Assembly (NCBI GenBank): GCA_027310465.1
Contig: DAIDAU010000163.1
Span: forward strand, 1-37,122
Length of the DNA: 37,122 nucleotides
Reading direction: 5' to 3'
Source of the DNA: Rhodocyclaceae bacterium
Lineage (GTDB): Bacteria > Pseudomonadota > Gammaproteobacteria > Burkholderiales > Rhodocyclaceae
The notes beneath the pieces were generated by a model. It had not been told where the DNA came from. It searched no databases and worked only from the letters and a program-made list of their open reading frames with translations. The number at the start of each line of letters is the position of its first letter. Position 1 is the stretch's first letter. This document shows positions 2,261-9,278 of the stretch, in pieces. A program made the position numbers and the translations under genes.

Positions 2261-2893
2261 ATGAACGTTTCCGACACCCTCGAACCACCGGCCCCCCGCA
2301 CCTGGATGCACGGCGTCATCCTCGGCGCCTTCTGCCTGGGTTTCGGCCTGCTGCTGGCGCTCACCGATCGCTGGACGGTCGACGACATCGCCGCGCGCGC
2401 GCTCGAAGACCGCCAGAACTCGCTCAAGCAGGTGATGCCCGACGCGATCCTCGACAACAATCCGGTGACCGACACGCTGACCATGACCAATGCCGCGGGA
2501 AAGGAAATCACCGTCTATCGCGCGCGGCGCGCCGGCAAGGTGACCGGCGTCGCTTACGAGATCTACGGCAACGGCTACGCCGGCGAGGTCAAGCTGATGA
2601 TGGGCATCGACGCGGAGGGCCGCGTGCTCGGCGTGCGTGCCCTGGCACACAAGGAGACGCCGGGGCTCGGCGACAAGATCGAAGAGAAGAAGACCGGCTG
2701 GATCTTGCGCTTCACCGGTTTGTCATTGGGTAATCCTCCGGCGGAACGCTGGAAGGTCAAGAAGGACGGCGGCGACTTCGATCAGTTCGCGGGCGCGACG
2801 ATCACGCCGCGCGGAGTGGTCGGTGCGATTCGAGGGGGGCTGGAGTTCTTCGCTGCTCACAAGGATGAGTTGCTGAAAGGGAAGCAAGGATGA
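2261..2893 (+). CDS. rnfG: RnfG, electron transport complex subunit G
   Basis: MNVSDTLEPPAPRTWMHGVILGAF...HKETPGLGDKIEEKK...FDQFAGATITPRGVV; FMN-binding GATxT motif. Confidence 0.9.
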   Translation: MNVSDTLEPPAPRTWMHGVILGAFCLGFGLLLALTDRWTVDDIAARALEDRQNSLKQVMPDAILDNNPVTDTLTMTNAAGKEITVYRARRAGKVTGVAYEIYGNGYAGEVKLMMGIDAEGRVLGVRALAHKETPGLGDKIEEKKTGWILRFTGLSLGNPPAERWKVKKDGGDFDQFAGATITPRGVVGAIRGGLEFFAAHKDELLKGKQG

Positions 2894-2913
2894 GTTTCGG
2901 GCTTTCGGTGCGC

Positions 2914-3026
2914 GCTCGGGCCGACGGGGTGCCCTGCTGCGCTGCGTGTCCCCCGGCGGACAAGAGCGATGAGGCGTCCGCCTCCTCCTTTACCTCCGCG
3001 CAGCAGGGCACCCCATCAGCCCGAGC
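2914..3026 (-). repeat. Nested palindromic element copy A
   Basis: Arms 2914-2942 and 2998-3026 (29 nt) inverted-complementary; core on minus strand reads GGTAAAGGAGGA-GGCGGAC...GTCCGCC-GGGGGACA. Confidence 0.85.
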
Positions 3027-3068
3027 GGAACCACCGTGCCATCTGCGCTCAAAACACCGCGGCATCGA

Positions 3069-3178
3069 GCCGAGGGTGATGGGTGGTCGTCGACGCGTAG
3101 GTAAAGGAGGAGGCGCAGGCCTTTTGATCTTCTGCGCCGGGGGACACGAAGCGACGACGACCACCCGTCGCCCTCGGC
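3069..3178 (+). repeat. Nested palindromic element copy B
   Basis: Arms 3069-3092 and 3155-3178; plus-strand core GTAGGTAAAGGAGGA-GGCGCAG...CTGCGCC-GGGGGACACGAAG. Confidence 0.85.
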
Positions 3179-3197
3179 GGTTAAGAGCTCCGCGATC

Positions 3198-3875
3198 ATG
3201 AAAACAACCACCACCAAGACCATCATCAAAGACGGCCTCTGGGACAACAACGGCGTGTTCTCCATGCTGCTCGGCATGTGCCCGACCATGGCCATGACGA
3301 CCAGCGCCACCAACGGCTTCGGCATGGGCGTCGCCACTGCCGTCGTCATGGCGGCCTCGAGCCTGCTGGTGTCGGCCTTTCGCAGCCGCATCACCCAGGA
3401 AGTGCGCATTCCCGTGTTCATCCTGATCGTCGCCGCGATGGTCACGCTGGTCGACCTTGCGATGAACGCCTTCATGCACGAGCTGTACAAGGTGCTCGGC
3501 CTGTTCATCCCGCTGATCGTCTCGAACTGCCTGCCGCTGGCGCGGCTCGAAGCCTTCGCCGCCAAGGAGCCGGTGCTGCCGTCCTTTCTCGATGGGCTCT
3601 TCATGGGCATCGGCTTCACCTTTGCGCTGACCGCCATCGGCGCCGTACGCGAGATCGTCGGCTCGGGCACGCTGTTCGCGGATGCTTCGCTGCTGCTCGG
3701 GCCGGGATTCAAGTTCATGGAACTGCGCCTGCTGCCGCCGAGCATGAGCGTGCTGATGATGATCCTGCCGCCCGGGGGCTTCCTGGTCACCGGCCTGCTG
3801 GTCGTCGCCAAGCGCTTGGTCGACCTGCGCGCCGGCAAGGAGATACAGATGGGAGGCGCGCACTGTGTGGCATGA
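3198..3875 (+). CDS. rnfE: RnfE, electron transport complex subunit E
   Basis: IIKDGLWDNNGVFSMLLGMCPTMAMTTSATNGFGMG...; RnfE/NqrD family membrane protein. Confidence 0.92.
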   Translation: MKTTTTKTIIKDGLWDNNGVFSMLLGMCPTMAMTTSATNGFGMGVATAVVMAASSLLVSAFRSRITQEVRIPVFILIVAAMVTLVDLAMNAFMHELYKVLGLFIPLIVSNCLPLARLEAFAAKEPVLPSFLDGLFMGIGFTFALTAIGAVREIVGSGTLFADASLLLGPGFKFMELRLLPPSMSVLMMILPPGGFLVTGLLVVAKRLVDLRAGKEIQMGGAHCVA

Positions 3876-4353
3876 CGCGCACACCATCGAAGGCGTCGCG
3901 CGCGTGGTCGGCGTCGATCCCGACGGCGGCGCCTGGCTCGAGCCCGAGCAGACCACGAGCTGCGGGCATTGCGCCTCGGCCGAGGCTTGCGGTGGCAAGG
4001 GCATCGGCACCATCGCCGGCCGGCTGGCGGCGCGGCGTTTCCACATCGACGGCGGACCGCGGCTGCACGTCGGCGATCGCGTCGTCGTCGGCGTCGAGGA
4101 CCGGATGCTGCTGAAGGGCGCGCTGGCCGCCTATGCGCTGCCGCTGCTCGTCGGCTTCCTTGCCGGCGGCGTCGCGCAGGAGCTGGTCGCCAGCGACGCC
4201 GTGACGATGGCAAGCATGGCGATCGGGCTCGGCGCGGGATTGGTCGCCGCGCGCCTGCTGGCTCGGCGCATGGCGCGCGCGGGCGGCCTCGCGCCGCGCT
4301 TCGTGCGCCTTGCGGCGGCCGACGAATGCCTTCCGCGCGGGGTGGCGCAATGA
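3865..4353 (+). CDS. RseC/MucC-like (SoxR-reducing system) membrane protein
   Basis: EGVARVVGVDPDGGAWLEPEQTTSCGHCASAEACGG plus two hydrophobic segments; GTG start overlaps rnfE. Confidence 0.75.
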   Translation: MWHDAHTIEGVARVVGVDPDGGAWLEPEQTTSCGHCASAEACGGKGIGTIAGRLAARRFHIDGGPRLHVGDRVVVGVEDRMLLKGALAAYALPLLVGFLAGGVAQELVASDAVTMASMAIGLGAGLVAARLLARRMARAGGLAPRFVRLAAADECLPRGVAQ

Positions 4354-4931
4354 AGGAGGCGCTGCTCATGATGGTCGGCGCGGCGCTGGTGAACAACGTG
4401 ATCCTGGCGCGCTTCCTCGGCCTGTGCTCGTTCATGGGCGTCACCACGCGCATCGACACGGCGGCGGGCATGGGCCTCGCGACGACCTTCGTCATAACGG
4501 TGTCGTCGATGGCCGACTGGGCCGTGCAGCGCTGGCTGCTCGACGCCTACGGCCTGGGCTTCCTGCGCACGGTGACCTTCATCCTGGTCATCGCCAGCGC
4601 GGTGCAGTTCACCGAGATGACGGTGAAGAAGGTCTCGCCCGCGCTGTTCCAGATGCTAGGCATCTACCTGCCGCTGATCACCACCAACTGCGCGGTGCTC
4701 GGCGTCGCGCTGCTGCTGGTCGAGGGCCGCATGGGCTTCATCGGCGCGACGCTGTTCGCCTTCGCCTCCTCGCTCGGCTACAGCCTGGTGATGGTGATCT
4801 TCGCGGGGTTGCGCGAGCGCCTGGCGCTGGCGCAGGTGCCGCGGCTGTTCGCGGGACCCCCGATCGGCTTCATCGTCGCGAGTCTCCTGGCGATGGCGTT
4901 CATGGGTTTTTCCGGCATCAGCACCAATTAA
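4350..4931 (+). CDS. rnfA: RnfA, electron transport complex subunit A
   Basis: MKEALLMMVGAALVNNVILARFLGLCSFMGVTTRIDTAAGMGLATTFVIT...ITTNCAVLGVALL; start overlaps previous stop (ATGA). Confidence 0.93.
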   Translation: MKEALLMMVGAALVNNVILARFLGLCSFMGVTTRIDTAAGMGLATTFVITVSSMADWAVQRWLLDAYGLGFLRTVTFILVIASAVQFTEMTVKKVSPALFQMLGIYLPLITTNCAVLGVALLLVEGRMGFIGATLFAFASSLGYSLVMVIFAGLRERLALAQVPRLFAGPPIGFIVASLLAMAFMGFSGISTN

Positions 4932-4941
4932 GGAGAACGGG

Positions 4942-5475
4942 ATGTTTAGCGCAGTCGGCAGCTTGACGGTGATGGGCGTGACGCTCGGCGGCCTGCTCGG
5001 CGTGGCCTCGCGCTATCTCGCCGTCGAAGGCAATCCGATCGAGGCCGAAATCCAGGCGCTGCTGCCCGGCTCGCAATGCGGCCAGTGCGGCTACGTCGGC
5101 TGCGCGCAGGCGGCCGCGGCGCTGGCGGCGGGCACCGCGCCGGTGACGCTCTGCCCGCCGGGCGGGCGCGCGCTTGCGCAGGAGCTGGCGGCCAAGCTCG
5201 GCGTGAAAGCGGACCTTTCCGCCGTGGCCGACGACGGACCCAAGGTCGCGCGCGTCGCCGAGGAGATCTGCATCGGCTGCTGCCGCTGCATCAAGGTCTG
5301 CCCGACCGACGCTGTGATCGGCGCGGCGAAGCAGATCCACAACGTGATCCGCGAGGCCTGCACCGGCTGCGGCGCCTGCATCGAGCGCTGCCCGACCGAG
5401 GCGATGACGCTGGCGCCGATCGCCGTCGGCCTGCAGTACTGGATCTGGCCGAAGCCTCTGGCGGCGGTGGCATAG
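4942..5475 (+). CDS. rnfB: RnfB, Fe-S subunit
   Basis: LLPGSQCGQCGYVGCAQAA... four-Cys motif and two 4Fe-4S ferredoxin motifs (CIGCCRCIKVCP, CTGCGACIERCP). Confidence 0.95.
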   Translation: MFSAVGSLTVMGVTLGGLLGVASRYLAVEGNPIEAEIQALLPGSQCGQCGYVGCAQAAAALAAGTAPVTLCPPGGRALAQELAAKLGVKADLSAVADDGPKVARVAEEICIGCCRCIKVCPTDAVIGAAKQIHNVIREACTGCGACIERCPTEAMTLAPIAVGLQYWIWPKPLAAVA

Positions 5476-5476
5476 C

Positions 5477-7015
5477 ATGGGATTCCTCGAGCGCATCTTC
5501 CGCGAACCGCGCTGGGGCGTGCATCCGGACGACCGCAAGCGGCCGGCCGCGGACGCTCCGCTGCGCAAGCTGCCGCCGCCGGCGCGCGTCTATATGCCGC
5601 TGCAGCAGCATGTCGGCGGCGCGGCGCGGCCGATCGTGCTGGCCGGGCAGAAGGTGCTCAAGGGCCAGCTGATCGCCGAGGCGAGCGGCAACATCTCGGC
5701 ACCGATCCACGCGCCGGTCTCCGGCATCGTCGCCGCGATCGGCGACGTCACGGCACCGCATGCCTCGGGACTGCCGTTCGCCGCGATCACGCTCGCATCG
5801 GACTTCGAGGAGCGCTGGGTCGAAGGCGAAGAAATCTCCGATCCGTTCTCACTTGCGCCCGAGGAGGTCGCGCGGCGCACCGCGGCGGCCGGCATCGTCG
5901 GCCTCGGCGGCGCGACCTTTCCGGCGGCAGCGAAGTTCGCGCTCGGCCGCCGGCTCAAGGTCGACACGCTGATCGTCAACGGCGGCGAATGCGAACCCTA
6001 TCTCTCGGCCGACGACCGCATCATGCGCGACCGTCCCGACGAGGTCGTCGACGGCGTGCGCATCGTGATGCACGCGATCGGCGCGCGGCAGGCGCTGGTC
6101 GGCATCGAGGACAACAAGCCCGAGGCCATCGCCGCCATGCGCGTCGCCGCGGCAGCCTTCCCCGAAGTGAACATCCGGCCGGTGCCCGCGCGCTACCCGA
6201 TGGGCTCGGACCGGCAACTGATCATCACGCTGACCGGCCGCGAGGTGCCGGCCGACGCCCGCGCGGCGGAAGTCGGAGTGCTGGTGCACAACGTATCGAC
6301 CTGCGCCGCGGTGCATCGGGCCGTGCGCTTCGGCCGGCCGCTCGTCGAACGCATCGTCACCGTCAACGGCGGCGCGGTGACGCGACCCGGAAACGTCTTC
6401 GCGCCGATCGGCACGCTGGTGCAGGAACTGCTCGACTTCTGCGGCCTCGACGAAGCGCCGGCCCGCATCGTCATGGGCGGGCCGATGATGGGGACGCCGC
6501 TGGCCCACGGCCAGGTGCCGCTGGTGAAGGGCGCCAGCGGCATCCTCGCCTTCGATGCGCGCGAAGCGCATGTGCCGCCCGCCGGTCCCTGCATCCGCTG
6601 CGGCAACTGCACGCGCGCCTGCCCGATGGGGCTGCAGCCGCTCGAGCTGGGCGCGCGCGTGCGCGCCGGCGACCTCGACGGCGCCGCGAAGCTGCACCTC
6701 GGCGACTGCATGTCCTGCGGCTGCTGCGCCTACGTCTGTCCCTCGCATATTCCGCTGGTGCAGTACTTCAACCACGCCAAGGGCGAGCTCTGGGCGAAGG
6801 AGCGCGCCAAGCTGCGCACCGAGGCGACCAAGCGGCTCGCCGCCGCGCGCCTCGAGCGCGTGGAACGCGAAGCCCGGGAGAAGGCCGAAGCCGCGGCGCG
6901 GCGCAAGGCCGAGCGCGCGGCCGCGAAAGCCAGGACTGCCGCCGAAGCGCAGGCCGGCGCGGAAAGCGGGGCGGCACCGCCGGCACAGTCCCAGCACGAA
7001 GGAGAAACGGCATGA
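5477..7015 (+). CDS. rnfC: RnfC, NADH-binding/Fe-S subunit
   Basis: GLGGATFPAAAKF...VNGGECEPYLSADDRIM...; CIRCGNCTRACP and CMSCGCCAYVCP motifs. Confidence 0.95.
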   Translation: MGFLERIFREPRWGVHPDDRKRPAADAPLRKLPPPARVYMPLQQHVGGAARPIVLAGQKVLKGQLIAEASGNISAPIHAPVSGIVAAIGDVTAPHASGLPFAAITLASDFEERWVEGEEISDPFSLAPEEVARRTAAAGIVGLGGATFPAAAKFALGRRLKVDTLIVNGGECEPYLSADDRIMRDRPDEVVDGVRIVMHAIGARQALVGIEDNKPEAIAAMRVAAAAFPEVNIRPVPARYPMGSDRQLIITLTGREVPADARAAEVGVLVHNVSTCAAVHRAVRFGRPLVERIVTVNGGAVTRPGNVFAPIGTLVQELLDFCGLDEAPARIVMGGPMMGTPLAHGQVPLVKGASGILAFDAREAHVPPAGPCIRCGNCTRACPMGLQPLELGARVRAGDLDGAAKLHLGDCMSCGCCAYVCPSHIPLVQYFNHAKGELWAKERAKLRTEATKRLAAARLERVEREAREKAEAAARRKAERAAAKARTAAEAQAGAESGAAPPAQSQHEGETA

Positions 7016-7041
7016 AAACGGAAGTTTCGGCGTAGGTTGAC

Positions 7042-8163
7042 GTGAGCACAGCGAACGTTAAGCAACCGCAGGTTGCGGCCGCAGGCAACGCGAACCCAAT
7101 CGGCACGCCCGTCTCGGCGCCGCATACGGCGACGCGCCTGTCCGTTCCGCGCGTCATGGGCACGGTGCTGCTGGCGCTGGCGCCGGCGACGCTGTTCGGC
7201 TTCTGGCTCTACGGCTGGCCGGCGATCTGGCTGTGGGGCTTCACCATCGCCGCCGCCGCGTCCGGCGAAGCGCTCTGCCTGCGCCTGATGGCGCGGCCCG
7301 TGCTGCCGGCCTTGCACGACGGCTCCGCCATCCTCACCGGCTGGCTGCTCGCGCTCTCGCTGCCGCCCTGGGCGCCGTGGTGGATCGGCGTCTTCGGCGG
7401 ACTGTTCGCCACCGTGCTCGCCAAGCAGGCCTTCGGCGGCCTCGGCCAGAACCTCTTCAACCCGGCGATGGTCGCGCGCGTGGCGCTGCTGATTTCCTTC
7501 CCGGTGCAGATGACCGCCTGGGTCGCGCCGCTGCCGCTCGGCGGCGCCAACGCACCCGGCCTGATCGACGGCCTCATGGTCGCGCTCAAGGGCATGCCGA
7601 GCGGACTCGACGCCGTCGCCAGCGCCTCGCTGCTCGGCTTCGCCAAGACGGAGATGTCGCGCGGCGTCGACCTGTTCGGTTCGCTCGCGCACGCCCCCGT
7701 GCAGACCTGGATCGGCAGCCGCCCCGGCAGCCTCGGCGAGACGGCCGGCTGGCTGATCGCCGCCGGCGGACTCGCGATGATGGCGCTGCGCATCATCACC
7801 TGGCACATCCCCGTCGCGATGCTGCTTGGCATCGCGATCCCGGCGGCGATACTGCACTCCGTCGATCCCGCACGCTATCTCGACGCCGGCACGCATCTGA
7901 TGTCCGGCGGCGCCATGCTCGGCGCCTTCTTCATCGCCACCGACTACGTCACCTCGCCGGGCACGCCGCGCGGCCAGCTGATCTTCGGGGCGGGATGCGG
8001 CCTGCTGACCTACCTCATCCGAACCTGGGCCGGCTATCCCGAAGGCGTCGCGTTTGCCGTTCTGCTGATGAACTCGCTGACGCCGATCATCGATGCATAC
8101 GTGAAGCCGCGCATCTACGGACGCGACCGCAGCGGCGCGGCGATCGAGGCTCGACGCGGTTAG
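7042..8163 (+). CDS. rnfD: RnfD, electron transport complex subunit D
   Basis: GTG start; NLFNPAMVARVALLISFPVQMT...; ATDYVTSPGTPRGQLIFGAGCGLLTYLIR; NqrB/RnfD family. Confidence 0.92.
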   Translation: MSTANVKQPQVAAAGNANPIGTPVSAPHTATRLSVPRVMGTVLLALAPATLFGFWLYGWPAIWLWGFTIAAAASGEALCLRLMARPVLPALHDGSAILTGWLLALSLPPWAPWWIGVFGGLFATVLAKQAFGGLGQNLFNPAMVARVALLISFPVQMTAWVAPLPLGGANAPGLIDGLMVALKGMPSGLDAVASASLLGFAKTEMSRGVDLFGSLAHAPVQTWIGSRPGSLGETAGWLIAAGGLAMMALRIITWHIPVAMLLGIAIPAAILHSVDPARYLDAGTHLMSGGAMLGAFFIATDYVTSPGTPRGQLIFGAGCGLLTYLIRTWAGYPEGVAFAVLLMNSLTPIIDAYVKPRIYGRDRSGAAIEARRG

Positions 8164-8196
8164 GGCGCGGTGCGATGGATCTGCTAACGCTAAACC

Positions 8197-8302
8197 GCCG
8201 AGGGCGACGGGAGGGCGCCGACGCTTCGTGTCCCCCGTCGGCCGCCAAAGGCGGCCTCCTCCTCCTTTACCTACGCGTCGACGCCCTCCCGCCACCCTCG
8301 GC
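8197..8302 (-). repeat. Nested palindromic element copy C
   Basis: Arms 8197-8224 and 8275-8302 (28 nt); minus-strand core GTAGGTAAAGGAGGAGGAGGCCGCC-TTT-GGCGGCC...GGGGGACACGAAG. Confidence 0.85.
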
Positions 8303-8346
8303 TTGGCAGCGTGGAGGCTCCAGGCAGGTACTGCGAGTCTCGCCGG

Positions 8347-8447
8347 GCCGATGGGGTGCCCTGCTGCGCGTAAGTAAAGGAGGAGGCGGACGCCTTATCG
8401 CTCTTGTCCGCCGGGGGACATGGAGCGCAGCAGGGCACCCCGTCGGC
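8347..8447 (+). repeat. Nested palindromic element copy D
   Basis: Arms 8347-8369 and 8425-8447; plus-strand core GTAAGTAAAGGAGGA-GGCGGAC...GTCCGCC-GGGGGACATGGAG; close reverse complement of copy A. Confidence 0.85.
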
Positions 8448-8500
8448 ACGAGCGCGCACCCTAAGTCCGATAGCTCAACAACGCTTCAAGGAGAAGCCCC

Positions 8501-8785
8501 ATGCAAATCGGCGTCGCCTATTCCGAACCCAGCCAGCAGGTCTGGCTCAACATCGACGTGCCCGAGGAAGCCACCGTGCTCGAAGCCATCGACAAGTCCG
8601 GCATCCTCAGGATGTTCCCGCACATCGACCTGGCAACGCAGAAGGTCGGCGTCTTCGGCAAGCTGGTGAAACCGGACGCCAGGCTGCGCGCCGGCGACCG
8701 GATCGAGATCTACCGCCCGATCACCTGCGACCCGACCACGGTGCCGCGGCGCGACGGTGTCGGCGGCGGCGAAGACGACGAGTAG
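8501..8785 (+). CDS. rnfH: RnfH family Ubl protein
   Basis: MQIGVAYSEPSQQVWLNIDVPEEATVLEAIDKSGIL...LRAGDRIEIYRPITCDP. Confidence 0.92.
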   Translation: MQIGVAYSEPSQQVWLNIDVPEEATVLEAIDKSGILRMFPHIDLATQKVGVFGKLVKPDARLRAGDRIEIYRPITCDPTTVPRRDGVGGGEDDE

Positions 8786-8792
8786 GGAACGG

Positions 8793-9278
8793 TCAGGCCG
8801 TGGATGCCGCAGCCGAAGGCTTGCGCGCGGCGGCTTGGCGCACGCGCGTCATGTAGGCGCGGATGCGCTCGCGCACGTCGGCGAGCGCGAGCTGGGCCTC
8901 GGCTTGAACGGCGTCGCAACGCACGAGGTGGAAACCGAGCGGCGATTCGATGGGCCCGGAGAGCTCGTCCGGCGCCAGCGCAAACGCTGCGGCTTCGATC
9001 TCCGCATACAGCACGCCGCGCGGGAACGTGCCGAGCTGGCCGCCGTTCAACGCGCTCGGGCACTCGGAGTATTTCAGCGCCTGGTCGGCGAAGGCTTCCG
9101 GGTCCTGTGCGAGCCGCGCCCCGATCGCGTCTATCTTCGCGCGCGCGGCGGCGCGCCCGCTGCCCGGCAGTTCCTCGTTGATCGTCACCAGGATGTGGCG
9201 CAGCGTGCGCATCTCGGGTCGCCGGAAGCGCGCCCGGTGCAGCAGGTAGAAGGTCTCGACGTCGTCGTCGCTAACCAT
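8793..9278 (-). CDS. nifM: NifM-like PpiC/parvulin peptidyl-prolyl isomerase (short form)
   Basis: LRHILVTINEELPGSGR...FADQALKYSECPSALNGGQLGTFPRGVLY...ELSGPIESPLGFHLVRCD; overlaps nifZ by 8 nt. Confidence 0.85.
   Translation of the reverse strand: MVSDDDVETFYLLHRARFRRPEMRTLRHILVTINEELPGSGRAAARAKIDAIGARLAQDPEAFADQALKYSECPSALNGGQLGTFPRGVLYAEIEAAAFALAPDELSGPIESPLGFHLVRCDAVQAEAQLALADVRERIRAYMTRVRQAAARKPSAAASTA

Follow-up and report, generated by a model that had tools for sequence, protein, structure and literature searches.

A bipartite nested-hairpin repeat at two junctions of a Rhodocyclaceae rnf operon, probably a non-autonomous mobile element

Introduction

Two gene junctions of the rnf operon in a Rhodocyclaceae bacterium are each occupied by a pair of long nested palindromes, raising the question of what these structures are and on which nucleic acid, RNA or DNA, their fold is kept. 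An initial annotation of the 37,122-nucleotide stretch of DNA analysed here (the window) described four such copies, designated A to D, and took the bias of their stems towards wobble pairs on one strand as a sign of function as a stranded RNA, in which it recognised no named family. Whilst the description of the structures has held up well, the step from wobble bias to RNA has not, and a different reading of the element is set out below.

Two oppositely oriented units in the window

Copies A to D are present at the positions originally given (Table 1) and each folds 5.5–9 SD below its dinucleotide shuffles, with 0/200 shuffles equally stable. The reported difference between the outer stems of A/D and those of B/C was recovered, as were the inner stems described for all four copies and the count of wobble pairs: on the GUAAAGGAGGA strand, the outer arms hold eight G.U pairs (two in A, two in B, three in C and one in D) and zero A.C. 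The arms also contain two purine.purine mismatches that had gone unrecorded, A.A in B and G.A in D, and the stem of half D extends a little further than first drawn, to about 8450.

A further feature that the initial annotation had not reported is that A+B and C+D each form one inverted pair, with motif strands −,+. Because the GTAAAGGAGGA motif strand is minus in A and C but plus in B and D, the two pairs are oppositely oriented copies of one bipartite unit, and they make up a 127-nt inverted repeat that is 92% complementary. The four palindromes are, in other words, two copies of one ~250–270 bp two-hairpin repeat, here called el1 and el2. The rnf operon is itself rearranged in this part of the window (2400–8800), the order being G-el1-E-A-B-C-D-el2-H where sister species have D-G-E-H with A-B-C before D; el1 and el2 both lie within the rearranged stretch, el2 at an altered junction.

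Table 1. Coordinates of the two units, their halves and the neighbouring genes in the window
Feature	Position	Strand	Remarks
el1, bipartite unit 1	2897..3185	.	made up of A, B and their spacer; lies between rnfG and rnfE; matches the 8190-8470 unit as an inverted repeat
Half A of el1, type-1 end	2914..3026	-	core GTAAAGGAGGAGGC at 2980-2993 (-)
el1 spacer separating the two hairpins	3027..3068	.	about 42 bp
Half B of el1, type-2 end	3069..3178	+	core at 3101-3114 (+)
el1-spanning ORF, 103 codons	2890..3201	+	no Pfam or NCBIfam match
el2, bipartite unit 2	8190..8470	.	inverted relative to el1; between rnfD and rnfH
Half C of el2, type-2 end	8197..8302	-	core at 8257-8270 (-); inner stem in tandem-GA form (GGA..GAC)
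el2 spacer	8303..8346	.	
Half D of el2, type-1 end	8347..8450	+	core at 8374-8387 (+)
rnfE, Rnf-Nqr subunit, downstream of el1	3198..3875	+	
rnfD, upstream of el2	7042..8163	+	
rnfH, downstream of el2	8501..8785	+	

Copy number and distribution

The host genome, a 3.79 Mb draft in 535 contigs that is 89.5% complete, holds 89 matches to the core motif, compared with 2 for the reversed pattern. Most of these fall in −,+ pairs about 122 bp apart, giving ~59 loci in the host, with many more in other genomes, none of which the initial annotation had reported beyond the window, and the −,+ pair architecture recurs in nearly all genera seen. Among 57 further host-genome places that were retrieved, a first pass recognised 30 complete units. 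Some single halves are decayed units, as at L055 and L063, where the second palindrome was lost by a between-arm deletion. At another locus (L016, at the end of contig G000:C61) both halves share one flank near the end of a short contig, probably through an assembly fold-back at the palindrome, and copy counts from draft genomes are therefore approximate.

A covariance-model search of related genomes, of the kind that the initial annotation had proposed, found the element in 21/299 genomes of the host family (6/68 genera) and in 3/368 other sampled genomes of the class. With a degenerate pattern, at least 119 stretches were identified in named genomes, mainly those of Rhodoferax, Hydrogenophaga, Rubrivivax, Methylibium, Aquabacterium, Variovorax, Sulfurisoma and Oxalobacteraceae, but also of Luteimonas, Pseudoxanthomonas and Lysobacter; the range of the element takes in many Burkholderiales as well as Xanthomonadaceae. 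Its cultured carriers include Sulfurisoma sediminicola, Hydrogenophaga flava and Rubrivivax benzoatilyticus. Few, unannotated copies are found in Variovorax megaplasmid records. As to spread by phage, there were zero matches among annotated phage records and one IMG/VR contig.

Architecture and covariation

Across the family, each unit comprises two related but different nested-hairpin ends (type 1 and type 2) that point apart and are separated by a spacer of ~46 bp (the median over 90 distinct units drawn from all genomes). The halves, each about 113 nt long, consist of an outer stem of 25–30 bp whose sequence varies, then an internal loop and, innermost, a short hairpin. The internal loop has the form G-N-A-R-GTAAAGGAGGA / GGGGGACA-Y-G-N'-A, with G.A pairs, and its variable positions covary, N-N' being found as T-A, T.G, G-C and C-G and R-Y as G-C and A-T. 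Part of the family has GTAR inside the loop and the remainder GAAG, and some copies have GGA/GAC, a tandem G.A, in place of Watson–Crick pairs in the inner stem. The two end types occur together in 70 of 79 units where 39 would be expected, a pairing that holds across bacterial families and gives the unit distinct left and right ends.

The structure is strongly supported by covariation, as the initial annotation had argued from its four copies. Aligning 41 halves revealed two-sided changes in 24 of the 37 pairs, with slid controls reaching at most 13 pairs, and cells with two-sided changes number 227 compared with 74 ± 7 after shuffling (0/500). When searched against Rfam at gathering and relaxed thresholds, the element gave only weak matches to microRNA hairpins, far below gathering scores, and thus no family match, in keeping with the initial annotation, which had recognised no named family; nor was an earlier description found by motif or topic in the open-licence literature.

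The inner hairpin is informative as to the nature of the folded strand. Over all genera it is closed by a triloop in 160/240 cases, 126 of the 160 triloops being C(GNA)G, and GNRA or UUCG tetraloops are nearly absent among the inner loops. Structured RNA is expected to carry GNRA and UUCG tetraloops; GNA triloops are found in RNA too. GNA loops are described as giving rise to unusually stable DNA minihairpins (Yoshizawa 1997, as cited in PMC6479982).

Filled and empty junctions

Evidence for insertion comes from orthologous gene junctions. The rnfG|rnfE junction is occupied by a unit in three species, that of the window included, and by a 26-bp gap in a fourth. A second host locus (L054) is filled in the host and empty in a sister species, whilst in a different genus (g2) four species have a unit at a junction that is empty in two others, and a second junction is filled in one species and empty in three. 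That the empty junctions in g2 are clean and palindrome-free indicates that the stems arrive with the insert. Orthologous units of congeneric species sometimes have different arms that are still self-complementary, which suggests that whole halves may be subject to conversion or replacement. A retained local function is another possible reason for the orthologous units at rnfG|rnfE in three species.

No transposase was found beside the ends at the element loci examined, so that movement is deduced from presence and absence alone. Flanking direct repeats are no longer than those between mismatched or shuffled flanks, giving no indication of a general target-site duplication, and one insertion is flanked by an 8-bp repeat, TGAAGTGA/TGAAATGA. 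No parental insertion sequence with the same ends was seen within the retrieved loci. Two candidate sources were considered and rejected: distant −,+ halves, which might have marked an autonomous version with cargo, enclose ordinary host genes, with no recurrent gene beside solitary halves in the retrieved loci, and the genes neighbouring single-copy loci, which might have represented a source locus, are unrelated.

Other structures were observed at or near these loci. A second mini-element of about 75 nt (GCGTAGGCAGGGTTTCGC...), tagged with GTAG, lies inside hairpin loops at a G-run; all five of its host-genome copies were found in loop position (L010, L035, L038, L061 and L064) and one copy was seen in another genus (L133:9779–9961). 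Oxalobacteraceae bacterium CAVE-383 (L213, L222, L279, L284 and L312) has solitary halves whose outer stems differ widely among loci. At L279 the 3' terminus of an ABC-transporter-like frame forms part of the stem, which looks as though the other arm had been copied from local sequence. Unrelated long palindromes are present at the same gene junctions in related species (L195:18800–18920; L346 and L351 at the junction of L147:5115–5377). On Burkholderiales MAG contigs, halves lie inside or across coding frames (L228:4988–5094 and L218:553–659), that of L228 apparently in a cobB-like gene. Finally, Y1 transposase genes of RAYT-like size (about 225–267 aa), mostly single-copy and with element-free flanks, are encoded by genomes G004, G021, G049, G072, G284, G303, G316 and G354, the loci of such RAYT-sized genes being L098, L099, L363–L369, L371 and L377–L383.

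Strand asymmetry

The strand asymmetry of the family proved stronger than had been claimed from the window alone. Over 282 distinct halves, the motif strand shows 132 distinct G.T events and 24 A.C events (p 3e-19, the sequences being related and the events partly independent), together with a 117:13 ratio of purine.purine to pyrimidine.pyrimidine mismatches. The scoring was symmetric, with arms set by Watson–Crick pairs alone. In single-stranded DNA, as in RNA, G.T pairs better than A.C, and the computed DNA folding energy is better on the motif strand by 3–7 kcal/mol. This mismatch bias indicates that the fold on the motif strand is what is kept.

It does not, however, support a function in RNA. 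The two halves of every unit face opposite ways, and in units between same-direction genes the bias is alike in sense halves (GT:AC 50:2) and antisense halves (64:7). Since a host transcript holds the motif strand of one half only, selection on read-through RNA fails to explain the bias. Private mismatches show a milder G.T bias (29:11), which could reflect selection in place after insertion and, if so, would count against a mobile element.

Operon location and coupled reading frames

Convergent or divergent genes flank many units, and many others are situated inside operons. In the case of el1, the ATG of the spanning ORF overlaps the rnfG stop and its TGA overlaps the rnfE start, with ATGA at both ends. 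An ORF coupled in this way to both neighbours, its start overlapping or abutting the upstream stop and its stop overlapping or abutting the downstream start, spans 27/75 units but only 10/4498 random windows (a control that also includes windows beyond gene junctions), and there are 1.7 open frames per unit compared with 1.0 expected. The reading frames of the same DNA differ between units (VKEE.. or xKGG..), so the coupled ORFs are best read as compatibility with the operon. A conserved encoded protein was rejected on the same grounds, there being no Pfam/NCBIfam match.

Discussion

The element is a single family with a structured fold kept on the motif strand, is present or absent at orthologous junctions and has ends that remain distinct across bacterial families. 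Taken together, the filled and empty sites, the two conserved ends, the C(GNA)G triloops and the equality of the bias in sense and antisense halves point to a non-autonomous mobile element, the ends of which probably work as a folded single strand, most likely of single-stranded DNA, rather than as host RNA. By analogy with the action of TnpA-REP on REP hairpins, an enzyme supplied in trans would recognise each end as folded single-stranded DNA and move or copy the unit. Insertion at operon stop/start junctions would be tolerated since it often results in an ORF that is coupled to the genes on either side, and foldability on one strand appears to be kept for the element's own spread rather than for host regulation.

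The alternatives share much of this evidence. Each half might act in transcripts as a stranded structured RNA with a role in processing, stabilisation or ribosome binding (through the exposed AGGAGG), and covariation, strand asymmetry and very stable RNA folds are all consistent with this, as is location inside operons such as rnf, where the coupled ORFs show that units lie in transcribed DNA. We nevertheless consider it unlikely: one half faces each way in every unit with equal asymmetry in both, the triloops are of the DNA type, presence at orthologous loci is patchy and no Rfam family was recovered. What stands of the initial annotation is therefore a recurrent, covarying, strand-asymmetric nested hairpin without an Rfam match; what falls is RNA function read from wobble bias. 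More doubtful still is a REP/REPIN system moved by a RAYT, a Y1 transposase of the TnpA-REP kind. The element does consist of high-copy extragenic palindromes in inverted pairs that fold on one strand and lie between genes, and Y1 genes were found in 13 of 20 genomes tested, nearly all of them carriers, mostly with one gene per genome and often of about 250 aa. Against this, carriers G000, G001, G003, G162, G264, G076, G081 and G068 have no Y1 gene, the Y1 genes found have no element in their flanks and no linked RAYT (Y1) gene was seen in the genomes tested. Nor does a GTAG or CGTC tag mark the foot of a 20–40 bp hairpin: the halves are about 113 nt and GTAR/GAAG lies in the loop.

Two further readings have very little to recommend them. 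The excess of doubly coupled ORFs and of open frames would fit a translated cassette, with the unit kept as a small coupled protein-coding gene, but differing frames leave no conserved protein sequence, no Pfam/NCBIfam match was obtained and many units are found between convergent or divergent genes, making this most improbable. Equally improbable is a BIME-like host function as bidirectional terminators or nucleoid-protein sites; the intergenic gaps are indeed short and long hairpins form on both strands, but no T-run follows the stems, many units sit inside operons and sister species do without units at the same junctions.

Returning to the mobile element, it is possible, although this is a more tentative proposal, that it represents an undescribed superfamily of bipartite single-strand-hairpin elements across Burkholderiales and Xanthomonadaceae, with two distinct ends, a purine-rich G.A loop core, GNA triloops, possibly a two-tier G-quadruplex (GGAGGAGG...GGGGG) and a mover that is not of the Y1/RAYT type. 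If this is right, a dispersed repeat of many environmental and cultured Beta- and Gammaproteobacteria spreads through recognition of folded single-stranded DNA and does so without the enzyme known to act on REPs, and its units show how long palindromes are tolerated inside operons such as rnf. The about 300 distinct natural hairpins would, if the reading is true, also allow DNA and RNA folding rules to be separated by sequence alone.

Comparison with known systems

The RIME of Rhizobium similarly has two large palindromes per intergenic element. REPINs and BIMEs (PMC3116915, PMC8266576, PMC3733652) share with it a unit of two inverted hairpins and a spacer, many intergenic copies, a non-autonomous lifestyle and, probably, a single active strand; TnpA-REP binds one strand only (PMC8266576), and in the present element it is the pairing that is strand-asymmetric. 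The present element differs from them in its ~113-nt halves with nested stems, large conserved internal loop and two distinct conserved ends, in the lack of a foot tag and of a linked RAYT, and in reaching many copies in hosts without any Y1 gene.

MITEs such as ERIC/RU, Correia and RUP (PMC10969869, PMC2759123) are likewise short, non-autonomous and intergenic, with inverted ends and sometimes with reading frames. The present element is also short, non-autonomous and multicopy, shows insertion polymorphism and has ends that are inverted relatives of one another; unlike in MITEs, each end forms a long hairpin of its own, no parental IS was found and no target-site duplication is established, flanking direct repeats showing no excess beyond the 8-bp repeat at one site. 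The Rickettsia palindromic elements (PMC10969869) offer a possible parallel in that they are palindromic repeats that keep reading frames open on insertion; coupled ORFs, in differing frames, span 27 of the 75 units here. The present element is, by comparison, bipartite, belongs to Beta- and Gammaproteobacteria and lies mostly at gene junctions, as a coupled ORF.
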